A stretch of DNA of 64,000 nt, taken from contig NZ_CP140151.1 of the NCBI RefSeq assembly GCF_034479555.1, forward strand, positions 2,976,001 to 3,040,000. The letters run 5' to 3'. This DNA comes from Chromohalobacter canadensis. GTDB taxonomy: Bacteria > Pseudomonadota > Gammaproteobacteria > Pseudomonadales > Halomonadaceae. The translations under genes and the position numbers were made by a program. The notes beneath the pieces were generated by a model, which saw only the letters and a list, made by a program, of their open reading frames with translations, searched no databases and was not told the DNA's origin. The stretch's first letter is position 1, and each line of letters begins with the position of its first letter. Of this stretch, positions 16,886 to 40,200 are shown in pieces.

Positions 16886-16961
16886 TGGAGCGGGCAACGA
16901 GGCTCGAACTCGCGACCCTCAGCTTGGGAAGCTGATGCTCTACCAACTGAGCTATGCCCGC
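16886..16961 (-). tRNA. tRNA-Gly (CCC)
   Basis: A 76-base cloverleaf with encoded CCA end. The acceptor arms GCGGGCA / TGCCCGC pair perfectly; the D-arm has AGCTCAGTTGGTAGAGC, and the T-arm has GTTCGAGCC. The anticodon loop is TTCCCAA between TCAGC and GCTGA, so the anticodon is CCC, reading glycine GGG. It is a single gene, on the minus strand. Confidence 0.97.
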
Positions 16962-16973
16962 TCGACGCAGGGA

Positions 16974-17002
16974 TGTTAATCACGCCGGCCAGGGCTTGGC
17001 AA
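16974..17002 (-). promoter_or_regulatory. Promoter of the tRNA-Gly gene
   Basis: On the minus strand TTGCCA (16997-17002) and TTAACA (16974-16979) are 17 bases apart, placing the transcript start near 16967, about six bases before the mature tRNA. Confidence 0.45.
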
Positions 17003-17043
17003 GCCTGATCATGGCAGCGCTCGATAAAAATGCGCGAGGCGAG

Positions 17044-17070
17044 GGAACTTTTGCCTGCAAAACGGTCTGA
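17044..17070 (+). promoter_or_regulatory. Sigma-E (AlgU/RpoE)-type promoter
   Basis: GGAACTT at 17044-17050 and TCTGA at 17066-17070, separated by 15 bases, match the extracytoplasmic stress sigma factor consensus (GAACTT, 16-17 bases, TCTGA in AlgU promoters; 15-base spacing is slightly short). There is no protein gene downstream on this strand, only a terminator about 70 bases away. Confidence 0.6.
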
Positions 17071-17076
17071 GTTAGT

Positions 17077-17166
17077 GCAAGAAACGTAATTCAGGCAGTC
17101 GCTAGGAAATGCGTTTTGAGCTTACTGTTCTCGATTGACCGCCGTGCCTTTGCACGGCGGTTTTTT
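17077..17166 (+). ncRNA. Candidate sigma-E-dependent small RNA, about 90 nt
   Basis: A strong rho-independent terminator (CCGCCGTGC 17139-17147, GCACGGCGG 17152-17160, then six T) is oriented on the plus strand, where no gene lies upstream: the tRNA and its neighbours are on the minus strand. About 70 bases before it is a sigma-E-type promoter whose start would be near 17077. The resulting RNA of about 90 nt, beginning GCAAGAAACG and ending in a U-run, has the size and layout of Hfq-dependent sigma-E small RNAs such as MicA and RybB, which repress outer-membrane protein synthesis. Not found by similarity; targets unknown. Confidence 0.55.
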
Positions 17167-17183
17167 ATGGGCGGGTGTCGGCC

Positions 17184-17594
17184 TCAGCAGCGGTTGCGCA
17201 TTACCAACAGGGCGGCGAGAACCTCGCGGCGGGTCACTAAGCCGATGACGTGCCCATCATCGACGACGGGATATACCTTTGGGCGTTCGCCACGCATGGA
17301 CTCGGCCAGGTCGACGATGCTCTTGTCGGGCGTCACCGTCAGTACCTCGCCTCGCATCAACTCGCCGACCAATGAGGGCTGGCCGCAGTGATAGGCACTA
17401 TCCAGCAACTGGCCTAACACATCCTGCTCCGAGATGAAGCCGATCAGATGGCCGTGCGTATCGACGACTGGCGCACCTGGCAATCGGTGGCGCGCCAGGC
17501 CGTCGGCGAGCGCCGAAATCGAGGTGTCGGCGGTGACTCGGTAGCCATCGCCGATCATGATATCGCCGACGACGGCGGGGGATGAGCGCGTCAT
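17184..17594 (-). CDS. CBS-pair domain protein
   Basis: 136 residues made almost wholly of two CBS motifs (about 8-65 and 73-132), seen as repeated (I/V)xxxDGxxxGxxxxxDVL patterns: GHLIGFISEQDVL and GHVIGLVTRREVL. Such stand-alone CBS pairs usually bind adenosine nucleotides and act as regulatory modules. The partner is unknown; nothing adjacent is an obvious target. ATG at 17594 has AGGAGG upstream. The plus-strand terminator of the candidate small RNA ends 18 bases beyond its stop. Confidence 0.85.
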   Translation of the reverse strand: MTRSSPAVVGDIMIGDGYRVTADTSISALADGLARHRLPGAPVVDTHGHLIGFISEQDVLGQLLDSAYHCGQPSLVGELMRGEVLTVTPDKSIVDLAESMRGERPKVYPVVDDGHVIGLVTRREVLAALLVMRNRC

Positions 17595-39948: not shown

Positions 39949-40200
39949 ATGTCCAAAGGACAGTCCCTTCAAGATCCGTACTTGAACATTCTGCGCAAGG
40001 AGCGCATTCCGGTCTCCATCTTTTTGGTGAACGGTATTAAATTGCAGGGACAGGTCGAGTCTTTCGATCAGTTCGTCATCCTGCTGCGCAATACCGTCAG
40101 CCAGATGGTGTACAAGCACGCCATTTCCACTGTCGTGCCATCCCGCAACGTGCGTCTTCCCGTCCAGGACCCGAATGCTCCGGCGGAAGAAGACGTTTGA
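39949..40200 (+). CDS. hfq: Hfq, RNA chaperone
   Basis: Sm-like hexameric chaperone that pairs small RNAs with mRNAs. 83 residues; Sm1 ([20 protein letters not shown]) and Sm2 ([10 protein letters not shown]) motifs are intact, and the acidic C-tail is short. The leader after miaA is 124 bases, and GGGAG precedes the ATG. The presence of Hfq supports an Hfq-type small RNA at 17077-17166. Confidence 0.98.

Follow-up and report, generated by a model that had tools for sequence, protein, structure and literature searches.

A probable sigma-E-dependent small RNA gene of Halomonadaceae, predicted to pair with a porin mRNA at two sites

In Chromohalobacter canadensis, a member of the Halomonadaceae, a promoter and a transcription terminator lie close together on the plus strand with no apparent protein-coding gene between them, which raises the question of whether they delimit a small RNA (sRNA) and, if so, which mRNA that RNA acts on. 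The locus is found in a complete 3,595,165-base genome, and the window, the whole stretch of DNA that was analysed, comprises 64,000 nucleotides of it. Positions 17044-17166 of the window very probably constitute a stand-alone gene for a trans-acting, sigma-E-dependent antisense sRNA that represses a porin, probably with the assistance of Hfq. From the sequence we infer that the gene is transcribed, that it depends on sigma-E and its product on Hfq, and that the effect on the porin is repression and not activation. The elements of the locus and the relevant genes around it are given below.

16886-16961, minus strand: tRNA-Gly(CCC), a flanking gene that is frequently kept as a neighbour
17044-17050, plus strand: -35 element GGAACTT of the sigma-E/AlgU type, read directly and kept as GAACTT in 65 of 75 copies
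17066-17070, plus strand: -10 element TCTGA, 15 bases past the -35 element
17077-17166, plus strand: putative small RNA gene of about 90 nt, its start deduced from the promoter and its end from the terminator
17077-17121, plus strand: 5' stem-loop with a variable stem sequence and a conserved loop (fold z -4.1)
17094-17104, plus strand: loop/core GGCAGTCGCTA, predicted to pair with porin codons 6-9 (+17..+27)
17119-17130, plus strand: mostly single-stranded linker AGCTTACTGTTC, predicted to pair with the porin 5' UTR (-31..-20)
17137-17166, plus strand: intrinsic terminator (stem 17137-17162 and T-run) with compensatory changes in helix 4
17184-17594, minus strand: gene for a two-CBS-domain protein, a conserved neighbour convergent with the sRNA gene
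39949-40200, plus strand: hfq, located within the window some 23 kb away from the sRNA gene, its start and stop codons read directly

A preliminary description of this DNA had claimed an AlgU/RpoE-type promoter with 15-base spacing, a strong intrinsic terminator at 17139-17166, no plus-strand gene between the two, and flanking tRNA-Gly and CBS genes on the other strand. The promoter elements read as it gave them, both neighbours are read on the minus strand, and the terminator has a stem at 17137-17162 (11 pairs, eight of them G-C, with a loop of four) and a T-run that ends at 17166. Just one plus-strand ORF of at least 60 aa overlaps 17077-17166, namely 17116-17391 (TTG start); it reads out across the sRNA terminator and is taken as spurious. 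The tRNA-Gly neighbour was present in four of seven family loci in one set and in seven of ten in another, and the CBS protein is 92-95% identical in seven Chromohalobacter loci, the next best reaching at most 66%.

Taken alone and set against chance, the promoter motif and the terminator would be only suggestive. With up to one mismatch allowed, the window contains a single GAACTT-N15-TCTGA, itself a perfect match, versus 0.42 expected, and 36 of 100 window shuffles gave at least one such match; five terminator-like sites lie in the surrounding 3 kb versus 2.3 expected. Genome-wide (3.6 Mb, both strands), GGAACTT-N14..16-TCTGA has three matches versus none for the reversed control pattern, and the two matches elsewhere (L054 and L056) are inside reading frames, as judged by eye. 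Promoter and terminator are raised above chance by conservation, since in 65 of the 75 copies GAACTT is followed by a TCnn element at a distance of exactly 15 bases, in a search that permitted spacers of 13-18 bases. The -10 variants among relatives are TCTGA, TCAGA, TCATA, TCTTA and TCTCA, and an A+T-rich stretch upstream of the promoter is also common (by eye).

The region was found by DNA search in all ten genomes of the genus (its own included), the nine others being 83-96% identical over a query that took in the tRNA. Of the 275 family genomes, BLAST matched just 17. A covariance model derived from 13 sequences had a match in 197 of the 275 at E<=0.01, the weak matches among these having been checked in part. 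Placement was checked independently with 80 loci retrieved through the CBS protein alone. The covariance model matches 74 of them, as well as the window, at E<=0.01 in 70 cases and at 0.06-0.13 in the last four, and every one of the 74 matches lies on the opposite strand, no more than about 300 bases beyond the CBS gene. Four further loci (L138, L144, L155 and L161) carry the sRNA by eye, and it was not seen in L113, where the sequence stops shortly past the CBS gene, or in L164, which has another context. The preliminary description had made its reading hinge on conservation in close relatives, where both promoter and terminator proved to be conserved.

None of this corresponds to a known Rfam family, an identity that is rejected because no match reaches the gathering score: at that threshold the window gave no match except the tRNA, and ten related loci gave only tRNA and ALIL, with nothing at the sRNA. 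Below threshold, 17000-17200 had 16 matches at E<=10, neither MicA nor RybB among them, the best being Leu_leader (25.6 bits, cut-off 50) and GcvB (22.3 bits, cut-off 42). A second model (R2), run over the order, matched 39 of 390 genomes, of which 18 are Halomonadaceae and the other 21 score at most 31.5 bits. Homologues outside the family were rejected on inspection by eye of three of these 21 (L178, L179 and L180), which show a terminator with no core and no promoter.

The predicted RNA consists of the 5' stem-loop, the linker and the terminator hairpin, and its structure is conserved where its sequence is not. In the outer helix of the 5' stem-loop, double changes occur at six of six pairs and 85% of cells are paired; the middle helix, one of four helices, has only 45% of cells paired. 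The structural covariation score is 0.476 versus 0.174 in shuffles and was reached by none of 500. In the model-fitted alignment, which is biased toward the model's own structure, 81.8% of cells are paired versus 64.4% in the shuffled control, and double-change cells number 265 versus 82. That alignment was used in place of a wide MAFFT alignment, whose RNAalifold consensus has only four pairs, probably through misalignment of the variable stem. Among 12 RNAs folded, L154 and L138 adopt another fold in their 5' portion and L127 folds weakly (z -2.6). The loop is kept across genera as GCAGTCGC(T). The 5' end (GCAAGAAACG) had earlier been guessed to be the seed; given the variability of the 5' stem that proposal is rejected, and the predicted pairing with the porin instead involves the loop of the hairpin together with the linker.

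The ten copies without an intact GAACTT comprise one with GAACTA and nine with divergent -35 regions (L093, L095, L096, L101, L127, L130, L146, L149 and L165), which come from Modicisalibacter, Onishia (three), Cobetia (two), Aidingimonas and two Halomonas sp. The divergent sequences include GGGAGAATTTT, GGATAGTTTTC and GGATCAAAAC, and the -10 element reads GGTCACA or GGTCATA in six of the nine. A different -35 is also seen in copies from genera g9, g10 and g14 among the matches listed. The differences could stem from drift or from a switch to another sigma factor; with these copies deviating, not every copy would, judged by sequence, be under sigma-E control. The two Cobetia loci (L095 and L096) have an sRNA without the CAGTCGC core that retains a linker like the porin-pairing type (TTTAACTGTTC).

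The genome encodes the proteins that are proposed to act with the sRNA. RpoE scores 309.6 bits versus a curated cut-off of 236.15, a gene with an RseA_N domain lies downstream of rpoE, and Hfq is likewise above its cut-off and is likely the chaperone of the sRNA. As for rpoE's own promoter, only a weaker candidate, GAACTT-N16-TCAAT, was found by eye.

The loop complement TAGYGACTGC occurs at nine sites on both strands of the genome, one of them the sRNA, and the reversed control at 28. The site at 727364-727373 on the minus strand falls within the sole Porin_4 gene of the genome (726295-727353, minus strand), at codons 6-9. The other sites are L183 and L185-L190, among which the gene context was examined for L006 (= L186); its 14-nt match was rejected as an mRNA target, the complement being antisense to a reading frame of 217 aa, which we take to be chorismate-lyase-like. 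At -31..-20 the porin leader carries GAACAGTAAGCT, which is exactly complementary to the linker of the sRNA, and this sequence has three exact matches genome-wide: the sRNA, the porin 5' UTR and one site (L304) that was rejected as a target because it is antisense to a gene (by eye). These two seed patterns made up the genome-wide target search.

A Shine-Dalgarno-like AAGGA (-15..-11) and the AUG fall between the two porin sites, and because the sites are ordered as an antiparallel duplex requires, both helices could form at once. Co-folding of sRNA and porin gives -80.0 kcal/mol versus -55.4 kcal/mol for the separate strands, a gain of -24.6 kcal/mol, with a mean pairing probability of 0.98 at the UTR site and 1.00 at the coding-sequence site; the interval -19..+12 has little contact with the sRNA (mean inter-molecular P 0.14). 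The collinear pairing score of the porin is 63.8, versus a maximum of 41.2 elsewhere (95 start regions, 51 window genes) and of 49.0 in 1000 dinucleotide shuffles. The Porin_4 porin is thus a well-supported candidate for the target, judged from sequence and predicted pairing.

Pairing in other genera was examined with orthologous porins that were sought through protein similarity, not complementarity; 66 of 74 genomes had one at E<=1e-15, and the tests cover the 59 genomes with both an sRNA and a porin start. Both sites are present and collinear in 55 of the 59 with the first-hit porin, a count that has no shuffle baseline and rests on a lenient criterion (at least 7 nt, G-U allowed), and in 56 of 59 with a paralogue for G220 and G269. 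The combined pairing score exceeds all 100 shuffles in 46 of the 59 genomes (50 with paralogues) and does not do so in 13. Duplexes in other genera are often longer than that of Chromohalobacter: the 12 genomes of genus g7 have 19-24 contiguous nt with the coding sequence (G-U allowed), and the 19-nt coding-sequence duplex of G100 is entirely Watson-Crick. In the co-folds of ten genomes, pairing is weak at the coding-sequence site of G187 (0.12) and G124 (0.60) and at the UTR site of G168 (0.52).

Letters that differ between genera often change in both partners. The third base of codon 9 (C or T) is matched by G or A in the sRNA in 12 of 12 genomes of g7 and is a Watson-Crick partner in 40 of 51 overall; the third base of codon 5, which may be C, G, T or A, has its Watson-Crick complement likewise in 40 of 51, with only two of seven in g14. 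The table behind these counts omits eight of the 59 sRNAs that lack the core, five of them from g14. For either position, 40 of 51 was reached by none of 5000 shuffles, a statistic that, like the other shuffle statistics here, ignores shared ancestry. On the linker side, UTRs reading AGTAAGC, AGCAAGC or AGTTAGC are often paired with sRNAs reading GCTTACT, GCTTGC or TAACT, and UTR TCGCGACTG goes with sRNA CAGTCGCGA in G124 and G126; exceptions to the correspondence include G118, G033 and G050. Within g14, absence of the CAGTCG core from the sRNA and GTAACTGC in the porin occur in the same five genomes, and the seven sRNAs with the core face GCG, GCA or GTG in the porin at that position. Nine g14 RNAs pair also, or instead, with codons 2-5 via GCGTCT(TT).

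This signal is almost wholly one between genera, because permutation within genera and same-genus partners reproduce the values of the true pairs. The pairing score is 698 of 867; with porins permuted within genus the mean is 693.0 (maximum 699), with porins permuted among all genomes 679.5 (maximum 692), and with the register slid it is at most 479 of 867. Similarly, the mean linker-UTR energy over the 59 genomes is -20.6 kcal/mol for a genome's own partner, -20.5 for same-genus partners, -16.9 for other genera and -9.3 for mononucleotide shuffles, the means including G179, whose linker was taken from the wrong stretch (-10.6 kcal/mol).

A mechanism may be proposed from these predictions. RpoE (sigma-E/AlgU), once released from an RseA-like anti-sigma factor, would transcribe about 90 nt from 17077 to 17166, and the RNA would adopt the 5' stem-loop, the mostly single-stranded linker and the terminator hairpin. 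The loop would then pair with porin codons 6-9 and the linker just 5' of the porin Shine-Dalgarno sequence, so that two helices would clamp the ribosome-binding site and start codon and block the initiation of translation. The clamped mRNA would probably be exposed to decay as well, and envelope stress would lead to a drop in porin synthesis. A block at initiation is favoured because the start region is bracketed by the two helices.

Pairing 5' of a Shine-Dalgarno sequence can activate translation in other systems, and it is conceivable that the sRNA pairs with the porin mRNA and activates or stabilises it, by opening an inhibitory leader or masking an RNase site. One of the two sites does lie in the 5' UTR, ahead of the Shine-Dalgarno sequence, and the co-fold in the own genome leaves -19..+12 mostly free of sRNA; however, the other site falls within the coding sequence, close to where the ribosome footprint ends, the helices bracket the start region, and the known sigma-E/AlgU porin sRNAs treated in excerpts of PMC4651636 and PMC7264166 repress, which makes activation quite unlikely. 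Less credence still is given to the absence of any functional RNA, with a chance promoter and terminator or a terminator that serves only the convergent CBS gene. One-mismatch promoter matches are expected at 0.42 per window and bidirectional terminators are common, but the sequence from the -35 element through the T-run, hairpin and linker included, is conserved and covaries with a porin encoded at another place in the genome; a chance promoter beside an orphan terminator is rejected by that conservation.

It is possible, though we would not put it at even odds, that the porin is one target among many and that core and linker are conserved to serve a broader regulon of outer-membrane proteins, a situation compatible with repression of the porin by a sigma-E-dependent sRNA. 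MicA and RybB have several targets according to excerpts of PMC4651636, and the target search here covered two seed patterns only. Against this stands how closely the sRNA follows the between-genus differences of the porin, third codon positions and UTR included, which suggests that the porin may be the dominant constraint.

The preliminary description had likened the RNA to MicA and RybB, as a sigma-E sRNA with an outer-membrane-protein target. That reading is supported by the conserved promoter, hairpin and terminator, by the covarying porin sites and by the presence of rpoE, the RseA_N gene and hfq. The likeness holds for the logic and not for membership, since neither Rfam family matches. 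RybB is about 80 nt long, ends at an intrinsic terminator and pairs with early codons. Its mRNA targets are of the porin type and the proposed sigma-E control would be shared, whereas the RybB seed is its unstructured 5' end and here the 5' end belongs to a stem that covaries, with loop and linker predicted to pair at two sites. MicA would likewise share proposed sigma-E control and a major outer-membrane-protein mRNA as target, but it acts through a single 5' seed and on ompA, the target here being a Porin_4 porin, and its Rfam model gives no match. ErsA would resemble the sRNA in AlgU/sigma-E-type control, use of Hfq and repression of a porin, all of them proposed here; its locus and porin family differ from those of the Halomonadaceae sRNA. 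According to excerpts of PMC4651636, RybB is controlled by sigma-E and represses ompC, ompW and ompN, and MicA is controlled by sigma-E and represses ompA; an excerpt of PMC7264166 describes ErsA of Pseudomonas aeruginosa as AlgU-controlled and as repressing, with Hfq, the translation of the porin oprD.

The features of this functional class found by sequence and computation are a sigma-E promoter, a short free-standing gene ended by a terminator, pairing around a porin start, and genes for sigma-E, its anti-sigma factor and Hfq. The sRNA is thus apparently an undescribed conserved gene that forms a new, separate family within a known functional class. No description of such an sRNA was found in the open-licence literature on Halomonas, Halomonadaceae and Chromohalobacter, and in an excerpt of PMC13414033 Halomonas appears only in connection with a foreign sRNA that was engineered. 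There is a reasonable case, somewhat better than even, that a Halomonadaceae family of sigma-E sRNAs clamps one porin mRNA on both sides of its ribosome-binding site, has co-evolved with it letter by letter while holding silent third codon positions, and represents a second, independent solution of the MicA/RybB kind. If so, envelope stress would throttle a porin through an unrelated RNA as it does in enterobacteria, an instance of convergent wiring, and the two-site clamp would provide a natural data set on the co-evolution of an sRNA and its target's coding sequence. The Halomonadaceae are a salt-adapted family with industrial uses, and the sRNA is testable at once, having a defined promoter, a predicted target and natural compensatory changes.

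Two minor observations concern the flank of the locus. An Rfam ALIL pseudoknot, a frameshift signal of insertion sequences, lies at L146:4300-4416 (plus strand), about 0.7 kb from the sRNA locus and past the tRNA. In several Chromohalobacter genomes the DNA search also found extra copies of roughly 25 bp from the 3' end of tRNA-Gly, repeated near the tRNA or serially; they resemble attachment-site remnants and may derive from elements that integrate at tRNA-Gly.

G001:C1:383557-383583; G005:C1:819671-819697; G003:C1:541946-541971: tRNA-Gly 3'-end copies near the tRNA-Gly locus
G009, C1:495285-495310 and 495443-495469: tRNA-Gly 3'-end copies near the tRNA-Gly locus
G002:C2:121229-121412: tRNA-Gly 3'-end copy on another contig
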